A stretch of DNA of 64,000 bases. Origin: Alternaria dauci (lineage: Eukaryota > Ascomycota > Dothideomycetes > Pleosporales > Pleosporaceae). Both the position numbers and the translations under genes were made by a program. Shown here in pieces: positions 2,355 through 17,018 of this stretch (position 1 is the stretch's first letter; each line of letters opens with the position of its first letter). The notes under the pieces were generated by a model. It saw only the letters and a list, made by a program, of their open reading frames with translations. It ran no database searches and was not told the origin of the DNA. The stretch is from the NCBI RefSeq assembly GCF_042100115.1, contig NC_091274.1, positions 124,001 through 188,000 on the forward strand, read 5' to 3'.

Positions 2355-3635
2355 CTATTTTTTGACAGGCTTTCGGCTAACTTCCCAAGCCATTCGGTTG
2401 CGAAGTATCCTTGCATCAACTTCATTTCCAGGGTGAAGTGGGCGCTGGATATAGGTACCTGACGCGTTCGTGTCGTACATGATTGCGAAGCACTCACCAA
2501 GAGCAGGCGGCAGATAGTATCGATTCTCCGTCCAGTTAGTTCTGGTGTTCCGCCACAAAGTTTGCTGGAACCACCCTGCAATCCAGTGCGAACAGATGCT
2601 CATGATGGTGGCTACAAAACCCATTGCGGTTTCGTCGGGACACCACGTACAACCACAGAACTTACTAACGTCTACCACAGGCCAGACCCGACGATTTCCA
2701 CTAGCATCTCGTTGAGTAAACTCGGCATTCGTGCCTGCCTTGACAGCATCCATGATTGTTTTCTGCTCAGCCTTGGAATGATATTCCACGATCCCAACGG
2801 CAGCCAACCGGGAAAACCGCCCACCGTCGATATCGTCAGCCTTGCTACCCATCGTCATCAGTACACATCCAAGGACATTGCGCTCCCAAGAGAACCCCAG
2901 CTCCCCACTTTTCTCAGCAATATCCCAGAATGGTTCTACTGGCTTTTGTACTCCGTGTACGAAAAAGTTGTAGGCGTGCGCGATTTCATGTCCGATTATG
3001 CAAGCAAATATGAACAGAGCTCTATGGTACTCATCGAGGTCTAGATGAGGCATGGCAAACGTCTTCCGAAAGAAAGCGTCGAACCTCCGTGAGAGGATGA
3101 TGCATGGGTGAGCTTTGCCTGTACTGGGTGGGATGAATGGAAGGTTTTCGGTACGGAGCTTGTGGAAGAACGGAGTTTTCTCCCTGGAGTGATACGTCGT
3201 TCCCCAATTTTCCTCCTCGTGAAAGTCTTTTGGAGAGAACATGAAGGTAATTACCTTGGAGAAATCTATGAGTTTCGCTCTGACGGACGCGATCGCCTGT
3301 GGAGTAATAGAGTATGGTGTCGGAACTAGGTAGGCTTTTCCTGCAGCACTGAACCGCCGCTCACTGGATGTCAGGCGAGTATACCATAAAAGAGGACCGT
3401 CCTCGTTTAAGCAAAGGGAGATAAGCTGTAATGCAGGTAGCATTTTCTTGTAAATCTCGGCAGCATGCTGCTCTGGGCCTGTTACCCAGCGCTCCAGCTT
3501 GAACATTGGATGGACAGAATTTGTCAAGGCAGGCAGCCTTTGCGTTGGCTGGCCTCCGTCATACTCGCGTACATGCCACTTGAACTCGGCGAGAAGGGAA
3601 TGCAAAAAGCCCTCGACACAAGGAGGATCAGCCAT
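2355..3635 (-). CDS. hypothetical protein with an HExxH zinc-metallopeptidase-like motif (426 aa)
   Basis: Single open frame. Residues 216-220 are HEIAH, embedded in a hydrophobic helix (ACIIGHEIAHAYNFFVHG), which is the arrangement of a zincin active-site helix. A Glu-rich stretch 20-25 residues further on (EKSGELGFSWER) could supply the third ligand as in gluzincins. There is no signal peptide, so a cytosolic protein is likely. The C-terminal half has several Cys and Trp residues (CGCTWCPDE). I do not recognise a named peptidase family. The motif is seen in the sequence; peptidase activity is inference only. It lies next to, and on the same strand as, the RRM gene, with no obvious functional link. 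Confidence 0.65.
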   Translation of the reverse strand: MADPPCVEGFLHSLLAEFKWHVREYDGGQPTQRLPALTNSVHPMFKLERWVTGPEQHAAEIYKKMLPALQLISLCLNEDGPLLWYTRLTSSERRFSAAGKAYLVPTPYSITPQAIASVRAKLIDFSKVITFMFSPKDFHEEENWGTTYHSREKTPFFHKLRTENLPFIPPSTGKAHPCIILSRRFDAFFRKTFAMPHLDLDEYHRALFIFACIIGHEIAHAYNFFVHGVQKPVEPFWDIAEKSGELGFSWERNVLGCVLMTMGSKADDIDGGRFSRLAAVGIVEYHSKAEQKTIMDAVKAGTNAEFTQRDASGNRRVWPVVDVSKFCGCTWCPDETAMGFVATIMSICSHWIAGWFQQTLWRNTRTNWTENRYYLPPALGECFAIMYDTNASGTYIQRPLHPGNEVDARILRNRMAWEVSRKPVKK

Positions 3636-4367
3636 GGCCAGTGGTCCAAGTTTCGTCGAGTCGTGGTCGCGTGCTGTTGTGAGTTGACTTGCAGTGTTTC
3701 TCGCTGCTTAAGTAGATGATCAAAGATGTATCAGTTGTAAATCAGCTCGCGAGCCAGCCATTTGTGAAACAGTGTAGAAGTGACACGCTACAGCGGTTCA
3801 ATTAACAGCATAGCAGTGTCAACACCGATGTTAGTTTCAATGCCAATACACGAGGCTTGACTGTCGCAACCTATAAATAGTGCCGTTCGCCCTCATCGCA
3901 ACCCACTGAAACTCGTCGAATAACTGACGAACATCGATGAGAGAGTTGTGGTTATGTACAGGCATATCAACAGCCTCAGGCGATAGATCAGTGACGAAAG
4001 AGTGCGTCGGCTGCTGGTACCCGCAACACAATAGCCAGCACTCCCTGGCCGCAAATACGACAAACGCGTTGGACGTCTGTTGGTACAGCTCTAGAAGACG
4101 CGCAGTGGGAATGCCACGCACCGTGAAGCGGAAAACAAAGTCAACAATAAGAACTGCGGGTGGAGAAAGGGACAAAGCCACCTCTGCTCGACGCCACGCT
4201 AATGCACAGCACATGTCAGCCAGCTCCTCCCCTACTAGTGTGGTTCATTTTTCTTGATGTGATACAAAAACAAAGCATCCCCCCACTTTCGCGATCGTGA
4301 CGGACGTGATCGTTTGGCCTAATCGGGACACCTCTCGGTACCAGTGCCGCACGATAAGACCACCACA
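3636..4367. other. spacer left of the broken ligase gene
   Basis: Contains one 125-codon open frame on the - strand (3837-4214) with no motif that I recognise and no splice-supported partner exons. I do not call it a gene. Confidence 0.45.
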
Positions 4368-4524
4368 TTACAGCTTCTCCAAAGTCGGTCGCGCGATCCA
4401 TCTTTGTATTTCGGGAAGCTCGTGGCGATCAGCGGAGAAGAAGCGAGGCCCAAGGATGTTCTTTTGCACTTTCCCTGTCGCTGTCTTTGGGAGCTCGCCA
4501 TCCTCTAAGATTACAGTCTGCACG
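4368..4524 (-). pseudogene. C-terminal fragment of an acyl-CoA/malonyl-CoA synthetase-type ligase
   Basis: Read on the - strand, this stretch encodes about 51 residues ending in TAA. They contain ELPKTATGKVQKNIL, the C-terminal A10 motif of AMP-binding (ANL superfamily) ligases, whose Lys takes part in adenylation. The frame opens just after a TAG that looks like a 3' splice site, so it would be the last exon; a very short exon may precede it near 4561-4597. There is no adenylation core upstream: the terpene synthase gene lies there on the other strand, and the ligase N-terminal half is found on the same strand at 7513-8235. I read the two pieces as remains of one gene. The terminal tripeptide EKL is not a canonical peroxisomal signal. 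Confidence 0.8.
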
Positions 4525-4668
4525 CTACAGTAGATTATCTAAGACATGCATATACCTTACCGCTCAGAGAACGAGTAAGACGAGGACACCTGTTCCTATA
4601 ACACTGCTTCCGAGACTACAGTCTGCATGCCACGGTCGATCTTAGCTTATATGCCTTATCGCTTACAA
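4508..4668. repeat. two degenerate ~50-bp direct copies spanning the ligase splice border
   Basis: 4511-4564 and 4616-4666 are similar. Both begin TACAGTCTGCA and end with CTTA(C/T)CGCT. Most substitutions are C/T or A/G, with a short indel. The repeated stretch covers the putative last intron and exon start of the broken ligase. The transition bias resembles repeat-induced point mutation, but two short copies cannot prove it. Confidence 0.5.
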
Positions 4669-4846
4669 GAAAAGCAAATAACAACACCCTACTACCCCAC
4701 TAGCAGATGTCAGCTATCTCCCAATAAAAATTTTCACCATTTCGAGGAGTCAATGTTACATGTACAGCATATGAGTATTTAGAGTTGTCCAATTTTCCGA
4801 ATAGTCATACAAATCACACTGTACATCTCTACCTCTTCGTTGCATC
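4525..4846 (+). promoter_or_regulatory. upstream region of the terpene synthase
   Basis: This is AT-rich sequence between the ligase C-terminal relic and the terpene synthase start, including AATAAAAATTTT about 120 bases before the ATG. It must contain the promoter of the synthase if the gene is active. No defined operator can be named. Confidence 0.4.
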
Positions 4847-7238
4847 ATGTCAAACCATACCTCGAGACAAGTACTTTACGATGCTACTTCTTACACTATT
4901 CCCATCTCAAACTACGACACATATGGCCTTTGCAGAAAATACCCCTTAAGAAGACACAAGTGGGAGGCCGAAGCCAATGCAGGTTGTCACGAGGCGAGGT
5001 TGGATTGGGTCAGGTATGTCGGGCCAATCGATGATTTTGGATTGGCCAACCCGATCAATGGGAACCTCGTGGCACTCGCGTTGCCCTTGGCGAAACCGGA
5101 ACGCCTGAGATTGGTTTCTTACGTCTTTGAATGTATGAATTCTGCCTGATCTTACAATACATTACAAAGCCAGGATGACCCCCTCTTATGCTAGCTTACT
5201 TATCTTGTTCACAGACACTTTCTACTATGACGGCGTTCTTGATCTTCCGCAACTAGATGTAGTGAGTCCGAATCTGAATACTTTTCTGATCTCTTTCAAC
5301 TTGCTGACTCGGACCTAAGACGATTCAACCGAAGCACGATCATCACAATCACACTGATCCCGCGCTGGGAATGGCCCAGATCGAAGCAAAGATTCTGACA
5401 CAGCTTACCTCAGTAGACCGAGCCTGTGGTGAGAGAGTCATGCGTACAATGAGAGAATGGGACAGTACGGCTATGTCCAACAAGGGTAAACAATTCGGCT
5501 CGTTGCAGGAGTATCTGGATTTTCGGGTATCTGATCTTGCAGGGCCGTAAGTGTACTGGGTCTGTTTCAACAATCTGAACGGATCAGGTCTAATGTTACA
5601 AATAGATTCTCGGAAGCTTTGGCACTCTTCGCCATGGGTATGACACTCACTGAGCAAGAAGACGCCCAACTTGAACCCATCCGTAGACCCTGGTACCGCG
5701 CTCTCACCCTGGCTAACGATTACTTTTCTTTTGACCGCGAATATCTCGAGTTGATGGAGTTGAAAGAAATGAAGACAATCAAGAACTCTGTATGGTTGCA
5801 CATGCAATGGCATGGAGTGGACGTTGCTATCGCAAAAAAGATGGTATTGAGCACAATTCGGCAATATGAGGATCAATTTGTAGAGAAATGCACGATATAT
5901 CGGCAGGAGAGCAATACACTGACGGAGAAACTAAGTCTACATCTAGATGTACTGGCGTTCATGGTCAGCGGAAACATGGTTTGGAACTTGAATTGTCCCA
6001 GGTACCATCCTGATAAAAGATACAATCCAGATGCTGGCCTCGAAGACGAATTGACGGCAAACTGGATGCGGCAGGAAACTTTAGGTATCGATTACGAGGT
6101 TCACCTTGTTCACAAGGTGAAAGAGGATTTATGTTCACCAAGCATCATGGATCTTGACTCCAAGCGTGGGCACTTGCGGAACTCTCCTAACGAGACCTGT
6201 CTTACGACTTCTGATGAAAGCGGATTGGAAGCAGATGGCAATATTTCTCATTCATCACGTACTTCGGTTTCTTCGAGTCATGAAGTCGAGCAGATCACAG
6301 CTATTCACCCGCCAAAGCGCGAACTCTTGAATTCAAGACATGCAAAAGCGCCAGTCGACTACATCAATTCATTACCCTCAGGAGGTGCACGAGATATTTT
6401 CATCAATGCCTTGGCCATCTGGTTGAAAGTTTCTACGTCAACCTTATCGCGCATCAAATCAATAGGCAATCGACTCCACTCTGCGTCCCTCATACTGGAT
6501 GACATTGAAGATGGATCCAGCCTTCGGAGGGGCGAGCCAGCAGCGCACACTGTCTTTGGTACAGCTCAGACTCTCAACTCAGGATGCTATGAGTTCGTGA
6601 GAGCGGTAGAAGAAGCCCGGCAGCTAGGTCCTGAGGCAGTTAAGATAGTCCTCGAGGGGCTGGACGAATTGCACATCGGACAATCGTACGATCTCTATTG
6701 GACACAGAACTGCTTGTGCCCAACGAAAGACGAGTATCTGGAAATGGTGTCTAAGAAGACAGGAGGAATGTTTCGGCTCATCGCGCGACTACTTCTCGGG
6801 TATTCGGCGAGCAAAGCGTTAAGTAAGGACCTCATAACTAATATTGAGGACCTTGTAAGCCTCATTGGGATACAATATCAGATCCGTGACGATTACCAAA
6901 ACCTTTATTGCAAAGAATATAGCGAGAAAAAGGGGTTTTGTCAAGATTTGGACGAGGGGAAATTTTCATTTCCGCTGATACATGCTCTGAGCGTGGAGTT
7001 AGATGGCACGAAGTTATTGCGCGAGCTTCTTCAGCGAAGAAGGGATAGGGGATACCTCTCCTATGAGCAAAAGAGGCTCGTGCTTAAGCAGCTCGATTGC
7101 GCCGGCAGTATGACATACACGCACGAGACATTGAAGCGACTTGAGGGTGAGATTAACCAAGGCGTAAAGAGGATCGAGGGTGCTATAAAGATCGAGAATT
7201 GGATTCTAAGGGCTTTGTTGCAGAAATTAGAGGTTTAG
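4847..7238 (+). CDS. chimeric terpene synthase: class I cyclase fused to E-polyprenyl diphosphate synthase (~730 aa)
   Basis: Four exons: 4847-5132, 5215-5261, 5320-5546 and 5606-7238, joined in frame by three GT-AG introns of 82, 58 and 59 bases. The N-terminal half is a class I terpene cyclase. Its first metal motif is D101-GVL-D105 (usual form DDxxD/E), the NSE triad is NDYFSFDRE at 224-232, and an RY pair lies at 319-320. The C-terminal half is a prenyltransferase with LPSGGARD, first Asp-rich motif DDIED at 485-489 and second motif DDYQN at 615-619. Such fusions (fusicoccadiene and ophiobolin F synthase type) build GGPP or GFPP from C5 units and cyclise it to a di- or sesterterpene. The product cannot be read from sequence. 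Length and motif order are normal and the frame is intact. The Gly at position 102 is unusual. Confidence 0.94.
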
Positions 7239-7512
7239 AGATAGTGTAGGGAGTATTTGAACAGACACCAAGATACAGGTATAGACTTGTATTAAGACGA
7301 GTCCTTAAGGAGCTGTCAAGACTCCCTAAAGGATGATATATACCTACAGCACATGATTGTAGCTAGTAAGAGCTAAAGGCAGCCTAAAGGGTTCTTAGTA
7401 GCTTACGTATAAACGTATAAACGTATAACTATGTAGTAGAAGTAGCCTACAAAGCATGCTAGCCTACGAAGTATGCACCTACGTTATTATGTTACTACTA
7501 TATTAAGTTAAG
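7239..7512. repeat. AT-rich block with short iterations
   Basis: This sits between the terpene synthase stop and the break point of the ligase N-terminal half. It contains ACGTATAAACGTATAA iterations (around 7404-7427) and repeated AGCCTAC and TAAAGG words, and is clearly richer in A+T than both neighbours. It resembles a small RIP-degraded mobile-element relic or insertion scar. No transposase frame survives. Confidence 0.5.
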
Positions 7513-8235
7513 TTAACGCTGTTTCCATCGTTCCCACATTTGCTCCTCATCGAAGCCGCCACTGCAAAACTCAATACGGCTACCGGATATGAGGGAGGGG
7601 AAGAAGTTGATACCCACGCCGGTCGCATGATGTACCAGAAGGACGTGAATGACAACGTCGTCTGCACTGAGCTCGTAATGATCCACGACTTCTAGCACGC
7701 AGTCAAAGATGAAACTCCTTCTCATCACCGCCCCTTTCGGCGCTCCTGTAGCCCCACTCGTGAAGATGACCACGGCAGGCACATTCTCATCCAAGGCACG
7801 ATCGGAAGAGATGATGATATATCTGGCATCTAGCGTAGGAGACGAAATCGAGGGCTTGATCGCAACAGCTCCAAAATGCTTATCGCTTCTCGTGGCGATC
7901 CGCTTCTCCAGGTCAACACATTTGACCAAGTCCAACGAGCTAGCGAGAACCAGCGCAGCTCTCAACTTCTCGACAAAGTAGACTGCTTCTTCTACAGGCA
8001 GAGCTGGTGTCAATGGAACGACAGCAGCTCCAAGCGCCAGTATTGCTAGTACCGCAACAGTATATTCGTACCCGCCCGCCGCTACAACGGCTATATATAA
8101 CTCGTCTTGCCTTCGCAGCGCTTCAAGCGCCGCACTAGTCCGTGAGCGGCGAACACTTTCTCGCAAGGCTAGTGCGTCCGAGAGTAACTCCAGATGTGTC
8201 TTGTCAAGGTCCAAGCGGGCGTCGTAAATAGCCAT
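7513..8235 (-). pseudogene. N-terminal half of an AMP-binding acyl-CoA/malonyl-CoA synthetase-type ligase, truncated
   Basis: 240 residues of good homology to the ANL superfamily: AMP-binding signature VIFTSGATGAPKGAV near residues 157-171, then LLVHHATGVGINFFPSL, a stretch typical of malonyl-CoA synthetase-like proteins. Family members run 500-600 residues; here the frame stops right after WERWKQR, at the edge of an AT-rich block. Upstream, a few in-frame codons before the Met continue the homology to a plausible 3' splice site near 8268, so an upstream exon may be missing. The last ~50 residues occur at 4368-4524 on the same strand. About 250 middle residues are absent. Activity is not expected. 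Confidence 0.88.
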
Positions 8236-10882
8236 GCGTGCAGTGGTCTGACTCGCGAACCGCAGGATTCTGGAGAAAAGAGGCTAGGTTGAGTTCAGTA
8301 TGACGCCGCGATCGTCCCTTTGCATGCATTGAGGTTCCGTCTTACGGTATTCGGGAGCACATTGCGTCCAGAGTGTCTCGGTGTCACACAGCATCGGTCG
8401 TTCATCCCCTTGGTATCCATTTCCTTTTTGAGCATCCAGGGAGTGGCGACATCGTTGCATGATAGAATGCAAAGTTCGGTACTGAGACCATTGGGTCCTA
8501 TATGATGAGTCGCGCGCGACGTGTCATCGCAATCATGCCCAGCTGTCCCCTGGACCGAACGATACAAGATCGCGGGGAAGACTCCCGACACCAACCCCGC
8601 AGCCCGCAACCCCCTCACTCCCGACGCTAAGGGCCGCGCAAGGCCTGTCGCCACACGCCTGCAGCCGCAATCTAGTGGAGTACCCTTGATGGGTTCCCCT
8701 TGGGATGAACGGAGGATGCCATGGAGAGAGTGCCGCCACCGGGTTCAGACACTCGCTCGACATGGCCATCACAAAAGGCCAGACGGTCGCGCTTGGGTAC
8801 CCGCACTTGACGCGCTACGCACGAGATGTGAATAGTGAAGCGAGCGGCTGTGTTGATAGCGACCATGTTTTCCTCTTCCACTAAACCGGTACAGTGGTCC
8901 TGTCAGCCACCGGCTGTGATATCCCACGCCCCGGAAATGTCATGTCAAATAGCTCGTCACATCAGACCTGTCATCGCGGGCCGGGCCTAAAGTTATCACC
9001 GCGTTCAAATCACACTGTCATCTCCGAGGCGAGAGCATGCGACCGATCCTCCCGACGTCCTTCGTATTGTCCCTGCGTGGGGAGGACGCGGGCACGCCGT
9101 GATTGCCTCCAGCTAGGCATCCTCCAATATTTCGGGCGCCTGCCACCTAGCACGTCCAACGATACGGTCTCTGCGCTCTCAACGCTCTCCCGGGTCGTGT
9201 ATCCGACCTTGCATACCGCCGTTCGCTGTGCGACCAGCGATAAACCTTAATCCTACGGTGTCATACGGATCGCCCTGTCAAAAAAAAAGAAGAGGCGACG
9301 AGGCGCATGCGAGACTTTCGATAGCGTAACGAATATTTCCGACAATGCAGTAGCCTGGAATCAGCCCGATTGCTCAGAACAACGTGCGGTTTCCTTTTCA
9401 TAGGCATCGCATGCATGCAGCTGCTCGCTAACTGGATGGCAGCGTCGCACACGGTGTGGGGCGCTTATTCGCATCAGTCAGCCACAATAACTGCAGCCGC
9501 ATCAACTGCAGTCTTCGTCATGCTGCTCTCGACCAGGGGTTTTGTTTGATTCTTCTTTTCCGATGCTTACGGTGTTTGCTGGCATTTCACATCGGTGACG
9601 ACCCCACGACCCACTAACCGGAGGACCGCCGGCAACGTGTCTCCTTAGAAGCCTTCCCCACCGATCAGATGACGCATCGCCGTCTGCTCTCAAAGTTTTC
9701 TGAGACGCGATGCATCACACCGCTACCCGTCAGATGCTATTTGGAGCTTCACCATGTTAGCTAGCATGGCTGAGCTCGCAGTAGTTGGGGCCGGTTATTC
9801 GAAGAGTCACGACCATCGTGTCAACTCTGACTGGAGCGCTGAAACCAACTAGGTGAGCTGTGCTGTGTTAGTCTGCTGGTTCTTCAATGTCACGCATCCC
9901 CCCAGTCTCCGGTAATAGGCTGCCAAACGCGGGTACATTGTGTCGCGCGTCGCGGGCGCACAAGCATCAAAGCGCCTGGTCATAGGGCTGCGTATTTACC
10001 TTGCTTGCGGCGCTCACCGACTATAGCAGGGCGACATTACCGGTGTGTCGATTCGTGTGCAGTGAGTATGGCATCGGTGATGAAACAATTCCTCGTGGTA
10101 GCCCGGTCACATTGGCCATTCATGTTGGCCATTCACGTTGGGTAGCGGCCAAGCCCGCAATTTCAGATACGATCGGGAGGCCATGCTGCTGCCGCGAAAG
10201 TCCCGCCCGCAGCGACAGCACAATCCCAGGACGTGGGTGCCAGCCTGCTTTGGAGCGACGAGGCAGTCGACACAAACAAGGACAACTACTATGCGCCGCC
10301 CCACCCCTGCTGCCAGGCAGGGCATGGACGTCACAGAGTAGCGAGGTCGTGTTTTTCGAGCTGCACATGGTTGCCTGACCTCCGCCGCGTGCGACGAGGA
10401 TGGGCGGGAAGAAAAGCAAAGCATACGAACGGTCCTGGTCGTGCCCATCTCGTTCATGGGCGGGAACCCTCTTTGAACGTTGCCGCATCGGCTGCACCTC
10501 ATCCGCTGCCGCGGGGGTTTGGTTCCTCAGGCACGGTCGAGCACAGCGGACGGGGAAGGCGGCACGAGACACGTTTGGCGCACGTCAAGGGTTGAGGATG
10601 CATGTGGAATAAGCAGCCATGTCGGGGAAGCGGGAATGAGGCGTGGCTTGGCCGCACAGATGTTTCCGCATGCGGTCATCGTCCTGGTTAACCCACTCGG
10701 CCCGTCGAGGTGGGCCAATGCCGCCCTCCCGTCACACCAGGCGCAGCTCAATGGGGCCTTGCGGTGAAGGGGGTAAAATGACATCTCGTGCTTCACATGC
10801 TGGGTGTCTACTCACCCAATTCACGGCATGTCTGACTCTTCCATCCGTCCTGTATATATACTAACTGCGAAAAGCCACGACC
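8236..10882. other. 2.6-kb stretch without a recognised gene
   Basis: Many short overlapping open frames on both strands, none with a known motif, a signal peptide or consistent splice sites. Base composition is not markedly AT-rich, so this is not an obvious RIP-degraded transposon. It may hold decayed cluster genes, but I cannot support any. Confidence 0.45.
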
Positions 10883-12708
10883 ATGTCCCTAGAGTTTCCG
10901 CTAGTATTGCGCAACGGCCGCCTTTTTGAACCCATTGCTAGCACCATCCCCCGCTTACTCGACATGCTCAGCACATCACATGGCCCGCCTGTACAGACAA
11001 AGTCGTTTCATCTCTCGTGTCTGGACCAGAATGTCGTGCGCGTCTACATACAGACACTGTGTATCTTCCCCGTATGTCGTTCTGACCCGTGTGTGGTGTT
11101 GACATGAATTAACGTTGTCCGCAGTTCCCAGATCTGAATGACGCCGAAACGGCCATACAAGCTCTTGGTGCTGGATTGCGCCTCACACTCAACAAGTTTC
11201 CCTTTCTTGCTGGCACACTCACACTTGCGGATCGCAAAGCCGGAAAGCTGGCCCTCAACTATCCAACTGTCATAACAAGCGAGCAACTGAATCGCGTGTT
11301 CCGATCAAAGCAGATCCCATACCATGAGACGGAATTTCCTCACACCTACGAGCAGCTCAAGCGGGATGGTATGCCACCGAGCGCATTGCGAAGCACCATG
11401 TTCGTCCCGGAAGATCTCGCAAACTACGCTGGCATTCCAAGAGACGGCGAAGGCAAAGTAGACTTTGACAAGAGCGACGCGCCAGCTATGCGCACTCAGG
11501 CCTTCTTCATACCCGGCGGCCTTGTCCTTTCCATGTACATGCATCACAGCGTTTTCGACTTTTCCGGCGTTACCCTCTTTTGGCAAACCTTCTCGGAAAA
11601 CGTCTCCAAGATCTCCAAGCAGCAGCTCTTCGAAGAGCACAAGATCATAGGTACTACCCCTCTCTTCACTGCCCATCCACGACTAACCATAGCAGATACC
11701 GGAAGCGTCGCCGACGAGCAGTCTCTAATGCGAAAAGCCGTTGACGAGCAGGTTACCCCACCACTAGGCAATGCCGGCGTCAGCGCCGACTGCTACTGCG
11801 ATGGCTCGCCTCAGTATCTCCAGACCTTGCCCAAAGAGACAAAATGCACGCAGCGGCTATTCGTCATTCCAGCATCACGAGTACGCAAGTTCAGGGAGCA
11901 ACTCCGCAGCCACTTTCCCGAGGATACCCCTCCGACCATGTGCAATGTGCTTGCAGCCCTGGTCTGGACGCATGTTACTCGCGCTAGAGCAGCCCGCTTG
12001 ACCAAGTACGGGTTGGCCGAGACTAGCATCGGCATTGCGACCGACCTGCGCAGACGACAGCATCCTCCTGTTCCGGCCGACTACATGGGCAACATGGCCT
12101 TGTTCTCAAGAGGCACGACGAGCATCTCGGACTTGACAGCAGAGGACCGGTGAGTCTGACTCCTTCCTATTGTATCATCGTTTGTCGCATCTTGTGCCAC
12201 TCCGAACCTTGTAGTCAAGATATCGAGCGCCGCAATTAAGTTTCAAGACACCCAGCTGACAAACCCCCGCAGTGTAACCAAGACGACCATAGTCAACGTC
12301 ATAAACACCATCAAGAGCACGATCCTCGACGTCGACGACGAGTGGGTGAGCCGCCACCTCACCTTCTTCAAGTCGATCGACAAGATTACCGACACCGAAG
12401 TCGCACTGGCTCTGACCTTCGGATCGGATATTTACATCTCGTCCTGGCTCAACTTCGGCGCTGACCTCAGCTGGGGCATACCTGGTACAGATCTCGACAA
12501 GGACTCCCTTGCTGGCCGCCCCGAGTTCATCAGACGATCGTATGGCCCAGGCGATGGGGGCATGATCTTCCTACCGCGACGCAGACAGCTGGTCAACGAA
12601 ATGGAAGCGCCGTTCGAAATCCTTGTACGCCTTGCTGAAGAAGACATGGCGCGTGTGCTCGAGGAAGAATGTGGGCTGAGCTCTTGGGCTGATGCAATTG
12701 TTGAGTAA
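10883..12708 (+). CDS. BAHD-type acyltransferase (trichothecene 3-O-acetyltransferase-like, ~549 aa)
   Basis: Exons 10883-11071, 11125-12149 and 12273-12708. The family catalytic motif HxxxD is H204-SVF-D208 (in MHHSVFDFSG), and the structural DFGWG motif is represented by NFGADLSWG near the C-terminus. Proteins of family PF02458 transfer an acyl group, often acetyl, from CoA to a hydroxyl or amine. The setting beside a terpene synthase and an acyl-CoA oxidase makes a tailoring step on a secondary metabolite plausible. A 45-base stretch (about 11652-11696) begins GT, ends CAG and carries CTAAC; it could be an in-frame intron, shortening the protein to about 534 residues. No signal peptide, so cytosolic. 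Confidence 0.9.
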
Positions 12709-13424
12709 ACGGCGTTTGTCGTCGGTCTCCTACTGGCACGTTGCTATTCACTCTTGGAATGAGGGCCAATTCGGCGCTCTCCGGTACACCACCTTCTTGA
12801 TGACGCTTACGGTATTTTGTTTCGACATGACGGTATTTGGCATAGCTATCGGTGTTTATTTTTTCGGTTTAGGACTTGGGTCGGACATTTGATATCCTGT
12901 ACAATTAGCCTGCATCGGATGGTGTTTGCGGCACAAAAGGCGTTTTGTATTTGCTCGGATGGCATTTTTTAGGCGATTTGTTTTATTCTGCTTCTGTCTC
13001 CTTGTTAATATGCATGTTACTCCTACCGCATCAGTCACCATCATGTTACACATTATTCTCCTCGTATCAAAAAAGCTTCAATACAGATATTCGTTCGTTG
13101 ATCAATGATGTTCGAGTCAACATGCAGCAACTCCAAACCACCGACATGACCCCGCATTCCGGGTCCACACTGTCGACGCCCCGCAGCGTCGCGCATTAAA
13201 CGTCTCCACGCCAACTCCTGCGGCCTCCGCCCACCACACCATTCCCCGCGCATACCGAGGCTTGGTGCAGCCTACACTGCCGCGTCATTGCCGGCAGGCC
13301 AAGACTCACAATGTGAGCTCTTCCGACGTGCTCGACGGCGACTATCGTCGCTGAGCAGCACCCGCCCATCGGCCTGCAACCGACTGTTGGCCAACTCCCA
13401 TCACGACTGCCGGCCAATCACAAC
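12709..13424. other. spacer between acyltransferase and acyl-CoA oxidase
   Basis: T-rich 3' flank followed by the upstream region of the oxidase. No coding evidence. Confidence 0.5.
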
Positions 13425-15703
13425 ATGAGAGATTTCACCGATCATCTCAAGCCCGCTCGCGACGGCACAGCAACACTCCAGGCCGAGCGCGACGCGTCAG
13501 ACATCAATGTCCACGAACTCGCCCAGCACCTCCTCGGCCGCGACGGCTTTCTGGAGCGGCAAGATAAGGTTCTCAGGGTCCTAAGCAAGGAGAAGCTTTT
13601 CAACAAGGATCAGCAGCTGAACCTCTCGCGCCCAGAGCGGTACCACCTAGGACTCGCAAGAGCAAAGGCCATACAGAGGTTGATGCGACGCGAAGGTTGG
13701 GACCACGAAGACTACAAGATGGCCGAGTACCTGACTGACGAAATGAGCCCATTCCATCTGCACATGAACATGTTCGGTGAGTAAACAGAACGTTGCAGCT
13801 GCGCCCCAGTGCCGCGCACAATCGTACCACCTGGGCGCTAGGAGCTGACTTGCCCCCGTACCGCACAGCCACAACGGTGCGCGAGCAAGCCTCTGAAGAA
13901 CAGCAGAAGCACTGGATGCCGGGGATCCTCAATCACGACATCATCGGCTGCTATGCACAGACTGAACTCGGCCATGGGAGCAACGTGCGAGGCCTCGAGA
14001 CGGTCGCGAAGTGGGACCCGGTGAAGCAGGAATTCGAGATTCACAGTCCGACGTTGACCGCAAGCAAGTGGTGGAATGGGTCCATGGGCAGGACCGCCAC
14101 GCACGCAGTACGTATCTCAGCTGCACCCCGTGCGACCAGCACCCAAAACTTTGTATATGCCCTTGGGGCGTTCGCTAATGCATGTCATACCTAGATTGTA
14201 GTCGCGCAATTACTCTTGCCGAAACCGCCGTCGCCGTCCGACACTTCAGATGCCGCGGATCGGCATGCTCAAGAGAGTAAATATACTTTACACGGCCCAC
14301 AAACTTTCATCGTACAGATTCGGGACGCAGAGACGCATCAAGCTCTGCCAGGAATAGCCGTGGGCGACATCGGTCCGAAATACGGGTATGCGAGTATGGA
14401 TAACGGGTACATGCTATTCGACCATTTCCGCGTGCCCAAGTCGGCTATGCTCAGTCGCTACGTCGGCGTCTCCGACGAGACAGGAAAGTTTGTTCGGAAT
14501 GGCCATCCAGCTGTCGTATACGGGAGTCTCACGTATGTCCGCGGGCAGATTGTGATGCATGCACGGCTGGTCCTGGCACGCGCTGTTACTGTCGCGGTGC
14601 GATACTGTGCTGTACGCCGGCAATTCAAAGACCGCGACTCTACCGACCCTTCTGATGACGAGATGAAGGTCCTCGATTACCCGACCGTGCAGATCCGCGT
14701 CTTGCCGTTGCTCGCGACTACGTTCGCGTTGCATTACACCGGCGAGTACATGTACATGCTGTACCGCAAGTCGCGAGAGAGCGTTGAAAAGGGCGACTTC
14801 AGTCCTTTGGCTGAGCTCCACAGCGCCAGCTCGGGGTTGAAGAGCCTGTGTACGACGCTCGCTGCGGACGGTATCGAGACTTATCGGCGCGCGATGGGCG
14901 GTCATGGTTTCGGCGGCGGAAGCGGGCTAGTAGGCTTGAACGCGGACTATCTCTCCAAGCCGACGGTCGAAGGTGATAACTGGATGATTACTCAACAGGT
15001 TGCGGCACATCTCATCAAGAAGATGACAGATGCTGTCAAAGATCCTGGCTCGACGCCCAATAGTCTGATGGATGAGCTGTTTCGATACTACCTTCTGAAC
15101 AAGGACCACCGCATACCCCAGGACGTCGCAAAAGACGGTGTGGTAGACGATCTAAGCATAGTCGAGGTCTTCCAGTGGCGCTCAGCTGATCTCTCTTATC
15201 GCGCCTACCAAGCACGCGTCGTCGAGAAGCAACCTTGGACCCGTCTCATGATCCAGCTGCACAACCTCAGCCGCGCATACTCGGAGCAAATCCTCATCAC
15301 CAACTTCTACAACGGCCTCGACTCTGTGAGTCCGTCCGCATCGTCGGCACTGCGGACATGCTTCCGGCTCTACGCGCTCTACACTGTCGACCAGTTCGCA
15401 TCCTCGTTTGTAATGACGGCCGCCGTTCCGCAAGCGTCAGTGTTCTCGTTGCAAGATACGATTGTAGATCTCATGGCCGAATTGAGACCGCATGCCGTGA
15501 AGCTCGGTGACGCGTGGTCGGTACCAGATTGGTTGCTTAATAGCGCGTTGGGCCGGTATGATGGAAAGGTGTACGAGGAGTTATTCGACATGGCGCATCG
15601 GAGAAATCCGCTGAATGAGGTGACTTTCAATCCAGACTGGCGTAGCGAGGAGATTGTTTTGGGGAGTGGGGACGGAGGTAGGCATGTTTTGGCGAAGCTC
15701 TAA
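13425..15703 (+). CDS. peroxisomal acyl-CoA oxidase (~699 aa)
   Basis: Exons 13425-13776, 13869-14107 and 14195-15703, two GT-AG introns. The protein follows the acyl-CoA oxidase pattern throughout: CYAQTELGHGSN and SPTLTASKWWNG in the dehydrogenase-like core, then FIVQIRD, GDIGPKYGYASMDNGYMLFD, and the ACOX C-terminal domain. It ends in AKL, a canonical PTS1 peroxisomal signal. The enzyme oxidises acyl-CoA to trans-2-enoyl-CoA with release of hydrogen peroxide, the first step of peroxisomal beta-oxidation. Length is usual for the family. Next to an acyltransferase and a broken acyl-CoA ligase it could be a cluster copy rather than the housekeeping copy; that is inference. Confidence 0.95.
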
Positions 15704-17018
15704 TATAAATCTAGTTATGTCATCCACGTGGAGAACTAAACCCCGAGGATTAGTATCAATCTATGCTAGGCAATGTGATGAGATGGACATCTCGGCCCGA
15801 GGCGTTGCCATCATCACCATCAAGTGCTGCAGATCGATTTGTCGCACACAGCATTGCTTCGTGGTTTGCGAGCGGAAATCTGTCATTTGTAAATGTGGAA
15901 TGCGGAATTCAGGGTAGCGTGAAACGAACTCGACTAATCGCAGGCAAACCCCTTTTCACTGCCGGCACCGGTGAAGGAAAAATTCTCTTCCCCCAAACCC
16001 AAGCTTGCTGGATCGTCATAGTGGATGTGATCGGTCAAGGACGTCGGCGTGCATTCTCCGCAATACATATTGTTTCGCAAACTCTAAATGCGCAAAAGCG
16101 GTCCAGGTCATCTTACTAGTCGGCCGTTGAAAGGAGGGCCGATTAGCCAAGCCGCACGAACGCCCAATGACGATCTGCTGTCAGCGTTTCAAGACCCCGA
16201 ATCCTGTCGCCCGTTGGGGAACAACATGGCAATTTTCCCTGCTAGGCCACCGTTGAAACGTCGGCATCGCGTGTTTTTTTGAATTTTGAACGCGCTTCGG
16301 GAGTTGCTGGTCGACGCCATCCAGCAGCGTCGGATGCGGGTGGCCTGCAGACTGCAGGCTAAGACTGGGGACCAGGACAGATAAGGAATGTCGCGCTTCA
16401 GGAGGAGCTAAGGAGTTTGCACTAACACGTCCGCTTCTCATCGGGAAGCGCCTCCAAACACACAGGGAGCAAAACGACTCGTCTGGTGTTGCAGTACCGT
16501 CGCAAGTGGTGAGCGGAAGAGGGCCGTGGGGCGCCAAGCCATGACTAGCTTTTCTGAGTCAGCAGCGATTGGGGGCCTGTCGCTTGTGACGCAGTTATGC
16601 AGACTACGGCACATCAACCCACTATGCAGCACCGTTTTCCCGAGCACCGGGCCTGACCCCCCATGCCCTTTGATCTCTGCCAGACAACCTTTATGGGCCA
16701 CCTTCCGCCACTCATCGGGTGCTCCATACCAAGCTTGTGAAAGCGTGGCCTAGGTTTCAGCCTGATCGCCGAGAGTGCGCTACGCCAGTTCGGGCCCAGG
16801 ACCCTTCGGATGACCACGCAGCACGTACGAGGAGCAGCGAAGAGGCATAGTTGTTATACGGCGTGTTCGTTGGTCTTGTACTGTCGAACGAATGCATCTG
16901 TCTGCGCTAGTATCTGCTTCGTAGAGACTCGACCTGAGCTTGACCAGCAGTTGCGGAGCTTGCCGCCGTCCGTCTTCCCGCCTGTCGTCCCGCCTCGTCC
17001 ACCGCCATAACCTCAGCA
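15704..17018. other. spacer before the Zn2Cys6 regulator
   Basis: 1.3 kb without a motif-bearing frame. It holds the 3' flank of the oxidase and the upstream region of the transcription factor. Confidence 0.5.

Follow-up and report, generated by a model that had tools for sequence, protein, structure and literature searches.

The window analysed here, G000:C3:124001-188000, is the whole 64,000-nucleotide stretch of DNA, which contains no N and lies close to one end of a 3.45-Mb contig in a genome of 34.9 Mb assembled into 10 contigs (the longest 7.05 Mb). Two separated parts of a predicted acyl-CoA ligase gene were located on its minus strand, and the gap where the middle of the ligase had been was filled by approximately 3.0 kb carrying a terpene synthase gene on the opposite strand (Table 1). 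The neighbouring gene beyond the ligase C-terminus had 11 relatives, one of which was named SprT-like by its source. On the other side, the segment of approximately 2.5 kb from the ligase start to the next gene (8406-10882, GC 56-59%) held no recognised gene, and was followed on the plus strand by a gene resembling those for trichothecene 3-O-acetyltransferase and by one for an acyl-CoA oxidase (10883-15703). A terpene gene cluster around the synthase was also considered and rejected, as a Pfam scan of the window that covered 29 different frames, short exons aside, gave no P450.

Table 1. Features of the ligase-synthase locus (positions in the window)
Feature	Position	Strand	Remarks
Ligase exon 1	8346-8405	-	ATG at 8405, 20 codons; tblastn with P0003 residues 1-20: 75% identity, E 3.5e-6
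Ligase intron 1	8284-8345	-	62 bases, GTAAGA...CTAG; flanking exons contiguous in relatives
Ligase exon 2, remaining part	7519-8283	-	255 codons, corresponding to residues 21-275 of relatives
AT-rich repeat fragment, right seam	7483-7520		Matches at other genome sites
Low-copy repeat	7243-7394		Begins 4 bases past the synthase stop codon
Chimeric terpene synthase (class I cyclase + prenyltransferase)	4847-7238	+	4 exons, 730 residues
Degenerate tandem duplication, left seam	4508-4605 and 4613-4701		Unit of ~100 bases; local alignment
Ligase C-terminal fragment	4371-4505	-	45 codons, corresponding to residues ~535-583 of relatives
Ligase stop codon	4368-4370	-	Relatives also end in ..KL
Neighbouring gene	2355-3632	-	425 residues, HEIAH sequence; no Pfam family

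The open reading frame 7513-8283 on the minus strand carried the FTSGATGAPKG signature, and its segment 7516-8235 matched the Pfam AMP-binding family with an E-value of 2.6e-26. The N-terminal half of an AMP-binding ligase that the earlier note had placed at 7513-8235 was therefore present, and was somewhat longer than proposed owing to the additional exon 1. The remnant of exon 2 was free of stop codons and frameshifts and continued into the repeat sequence for one codon before a stop (7513-7515). The C-terminal fragment (EDGELPKTATGKVQKNILGPRFF...EKL) matched the relative P0003 in tblastn with an E-value of 1.3e-14, while it hit no Pfam family because of its short length. Its assignment to a ligase, made in the same note for 4368-4524, thus held, except that the recognisable ligase sequence stopped at about 4507 rather than 4524.

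Relatives of the ligase were sought with the N-terminal fragment and compared at the protein level; 414 proteins were found at an E-value of 0.001 among 7993 candidates scored, 120 of them being listed, and the C-terminal fragment was compared only within these 120. The N-terminal fragment matched all 120 and the C-terminal fragment 61, many of the others being partial sequences; the named relatives belonged to Pleosporales. As had been predicted, both fragments pointed to the same proteins at opposite ends. They shared the best relatives P0003, P0004, P0005 and P0007, all from Alternaria and 572-583 residues long, which ranked 3, 1, 2 and 6 for the N-terminal part and 1, 3, 4 and 2 for the C-terminal part. 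The N-terminal fragment corresponded to their residues 21-275 (1-275 with exon 1) and the C-terminal fragment to about residue 536 through the last residue. Identity to the Alternaria relatives was 64-79% across exon 1, the stretch of residues 21-275 and the C-terminus, and P0008 showed 85% over its part. A search of PDB with the C-terminal fragment was uninformative (best E 0.12, an oxalate-CoA ligase). The shared best relatives and the complementary residues of one 572-583-residue protein strongly support the proposal of one disrupted acyl-CoA ligase gene, similar to fungal malonyl-CoA/fatty-acyl-CoA synthetases. Like the Alternaria ligases P0003-P0008 of this type, the remnant retained a matching N-terminal part and C-terminus; unlike them, it lacked the middle 260 residues and had A in place of T in the P-loop (T178A).

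The same results bear on two rival explanations. That two unrelated ligase fragments happened to fall in this order would be easier to imagine given the shortness of the C-terminal fragment, but it is barely conceivable in view of the common best relatives and the complementary residues, and no other close ligase was found in the genome, where the best match elsewhere was 28% identical for the N-terminal part and, for the C-terminal part, a single stretch of 18 residues with an E-value of 0.08. An assembly artefact joining unrelated sequences is also very unlikely, since the ligase pieces retained their order and strand as well as complementary residues in an assembly of 10 contigs reaching 7.05 Mb, with no N in the window. 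As a separate observation, the A. alternata ligase model P0008, representing a cluster of 124 sequences, had an unrelated, frameshift-like tail after VVGVPD. The ligase of that species may also be failing, although an error of the gene model is equally possible.

The absent part of the ligase corresponded to residues 276-535 in the numbering of P0003, or 260 residues, close to the 250 or so originally estimated. When P0003 (582 residues) was searched against the whole genome at an E-value of 0.001, 26 matches were obtained, of which just two exceeded 37% identity. Both were at this locus, covering residues 12-276 (72%) and 534-575 (71%), and the next best match, at C4:1713236 (36%), was a different member of the family. 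The middle of the ligase alone gave no match in the window at an E-value of 1e-3, and a weak match of P0003 at 16238-16396 (E 0.002) was judged to be due to chance. We also considered that the middle had moved elsewhere; as nothing more than 37% identical was found elsewhere in the 34.9-Mb genome at an E-value of 0.001, it seems to have been lost rather than moved, although this search could overlook a fragment only a few dozen residues long. A ligase of this type requires a complete adenylating N-domain and a C-domain in one frame, which the remnant did not provide, and with 260 middle residues gone it cannot be a complete enzyme.

The synthase gene was predicted to consist of the exons 4847-5132, 5215-5261, 5320-5546 and 5606-7238, separated by three GT-AG introns (5133-5214, 5262-5319 and 5547-5605) that were placed from GT/AG boundaries and relatives. 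The 730-residue product showed 69% identity over 100% of the query to P0121 of Bipolaris oryzae, its closest listed protein, with agreement of the first and last residues, so the cyclase-prenyltransferase gene described in the earlier note was indeed complete. It matched variediene synthase (PDB 9e2h) in two domains with an E-value of 2.8e-150, and exon 4 matched Terpene_syn_C_2 and polyprenyl_synt (E 2.9e-50) in Pfam. According to PMC9605422, the N-terminal cyclase of a fungal bifunctional terpene synthase (PTTS) has a DDxxD-type motif and an NSE/DTE motif. In the window's enzyme, the NSE motif was present as NDYFSFDRE, while DDxxD was seen just as D-xxx-D (DGVLD); the two prenyltransferase motifs, DDXXD and DDXXN, were found as DDIED at 485 and DDYQN at 615. 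The enzyme thus resembled fungal PTTS such as EvVS and fusicoccadiene synthase in having an N-terminal class I cyclase, a C-terminal prenyltransferase and these three motifs, and differed from their DDxxD in the first aspartate motif. The second D of this motif was also absent in six of the seven relatives shown (DTILD, DSVIE, DTVVE, DNMIE and others). The product is probably a cyclic C20 or C25 terpene. A recent copying of the gene within the genome was rejected, as the best other match was 46% identical in the prenyltransferase part (C4:525501) and 35% over 542 residues, and a retrocopy was rejected on account of the three introns. A second chimeric terpene synthase gene, approximately 35% identical to that of the window, was noticed in G000:C4:520000-529999 at about 4200-6400 of that segment.

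Substitutions at conserved sites were compared between the two genes. For the ligase, columns at least 95% conserved were used, and filtering by coverage and identity left 90 of the 120 relatives. The remnant differed at 7 of 99 such columns (S107L, T178A, A196V, A200V, L212I, P216L and R240C), ranking third of 91 rows behind P0073 and P0086; T178A lay in the FTSG-TG loop. The eight nearest relatives P0001-P0008 together showed 10 changes in 788, P0004 and P0005 being identical in this part, and at strictly invariant columns the remnant was changed at 3 of 51. The same test with 49 of 52 synthase relatives, from 60 found, gave 4 changes in 111 for the window's synthase (rank 17 of 50) and 4 in 110 for that of B. 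oryzae. The ligase remnant therefore had an excess of changes at conserved sites; the synthase had none in excess. These results point to a pseudogene in the former and suggest that the latter is under constraint. As no frameshift or internal stop was present in the 275 open codons of the ligase, the evidence of decay consisted of missense changes alone, and the event was probably not old.

Repeat fragments were present on the right side. The AT-rich fragment at the right seam overlapped the ligase by two bases, in the codon for Q275, and was found at at least four other genome sites; the copies at C5, C9, C3:3119341 and C1 were 92-97% identical to it over 33-39 bases. The low-copy repeat adjoining the synthase was 78% identical to C3:1966987-1967138 and 84% identical over 68 bases to C4:3333207. 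Among the 34 differences between this repeat and its other copy, 16 were G to A in the window, and nine of these 16 followed T; G after T was changed at 9 of 16 positions and other G at 7 of 32. RIP causes G-to-A leaning changes of this kind in repeats. The substitution pattern thus appears RIP-like, which suggests that the segment was mutated as a repeat. The left seam was at or near the degenerate tandem duplication. None of 2000 base shuffles reached the local alignment score of 57 of this duplication, and in the rest of the window one of 657 adjacent pairs did. The left flank (4500-4860) had no other copy in the genome. Neither a target-site duplication nor a complete transposon was found at the locus, only repeat fragments; any target-site duplication would have disappeared with the 260 codons. 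The captain of Starships is DUF3435, and transport as Starship cargo was rejected because no such captain (PF11917) was present on C3. The only PF11917 match of the genome was a DUF3435 remnant with internal stop codons at G000:C5:127859-129179.

The insertion event proposed in the earlier note was favoured by the remnants of repeats on the right side together with the absence of the ligase middle from the genome. A ligase relative (P0001) and a relative of the neighbouring gene (P0183) were both listed with a longest contig of 4827 bases; if this is one and the same contig, it would have no room for ligase, synthase and neighbour at once. We consider it quite probable that the ligase gene, running from 8405 to 4368 on the minus strand, lost approximately 260 middle codons and that the approximately 3.0 kb with the intact synthase now in their place was captured during repair. 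In the likeliest route, a chromosome break would have occurred within the ligase gene, end joining would have captured the synthase segment along with the repeat fragments, and the ligase middle would have been deleted in that repair, leaving the ligase as a pseudogene. A seam made in one event and a seam made in two or more successive events would look the same. It is thus possible, if less probable, that repeats had first broken and shortened the ligase and that the synthase was added to the scar they left at a later time, as could happen when copies of a repeat recombine; two different repeat fragments did lie between the synthase stop codon and the ligase, one of them with the RIP-like pattern. 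Such a stepwise course would sit less well with the left side, where no repeat was found, and with the still open ligase frame, which argues against long decay before the synthase arrived. Both families are carried within one genus in related Pleosporales (Alternaria and Bipolaris), so the synthase might instead have been a neighbour of the ligase that was brought inside by a local inversion and deletion. This is improbable, as no rearranged ligase middle was found in the window or the genome and the scraps at the seam were foreign repeats. The further statement that a terpene synthase had thereby entered a metabolic locus went beyond the data, since there was no sign that the ligase and the synthase share a pathway.

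The trees of the two genes suggested different histories. The best relatives of the synthase were mostly from Pleosporaceae. In the synthase tree (n = 29; 28 of the 60 found and the window's), the window's enzyme grouped with that of B. oryzae (100/99), and the two nested with the B. maydis and B. victoriae enzymes, apart from those of Alternaria and Stemphylium. In the ligase tree (n = 28; 27 of the 120 listed and the window's), the N-terminal part grouped with A. alternata (95/88), and all named members of the clade containing them (100/99) were Alternaria; its terminal branch had twice the length (0.15 versus 0.075). Identity between the synthases of B. oryzae and B. maydis was just 65%, so that old duplicates with uneven loss fit the tree as well as transfer. 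The third-position GC of the synthase (0.523) was the lowest of 11 coding segments compared (the rest 0.539-0.655), which is no more than a weak hint. A less probable idea is that the synthase came from a Bipolaris-like lineage as filler DNA in the repair of the ligase break, a metabolic gene being traded for a new terpene gene in one step.

The breaking of genes by inserted DNA that leaves repeat fragments at its borders is a general phenomenon. The preferred repair capture shares with them the deletion of the target and the captured DNA, and differs in that the insert was a whole secondary-metabolism gene and not a transposon. The locus represents no new kind of system but an example, unusually easy to read, of an event of a known kind: as the target gene is legible on both sides and the frame of its remnant is open, one can see where the event took place, how much was lost and what debris lies at the seam. 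In the literature searched, mostly outside subscription journals, we found no published case of such an event. Terpene synthases are scattered and patchy in fungal genomes, and explanations of how this came about usually rely on guesses from trees; at this locus, the genomes of a few relatives would allow the event to be dated and the donor to be tested. Elsewhere in this genome, the AltA1 family had just two weak matches, and the only match to 5.8S rRNA was at G000:C7:2725102-2725255, in an AT-rich and apparently heavily mutated rDNA copy near the contig end.
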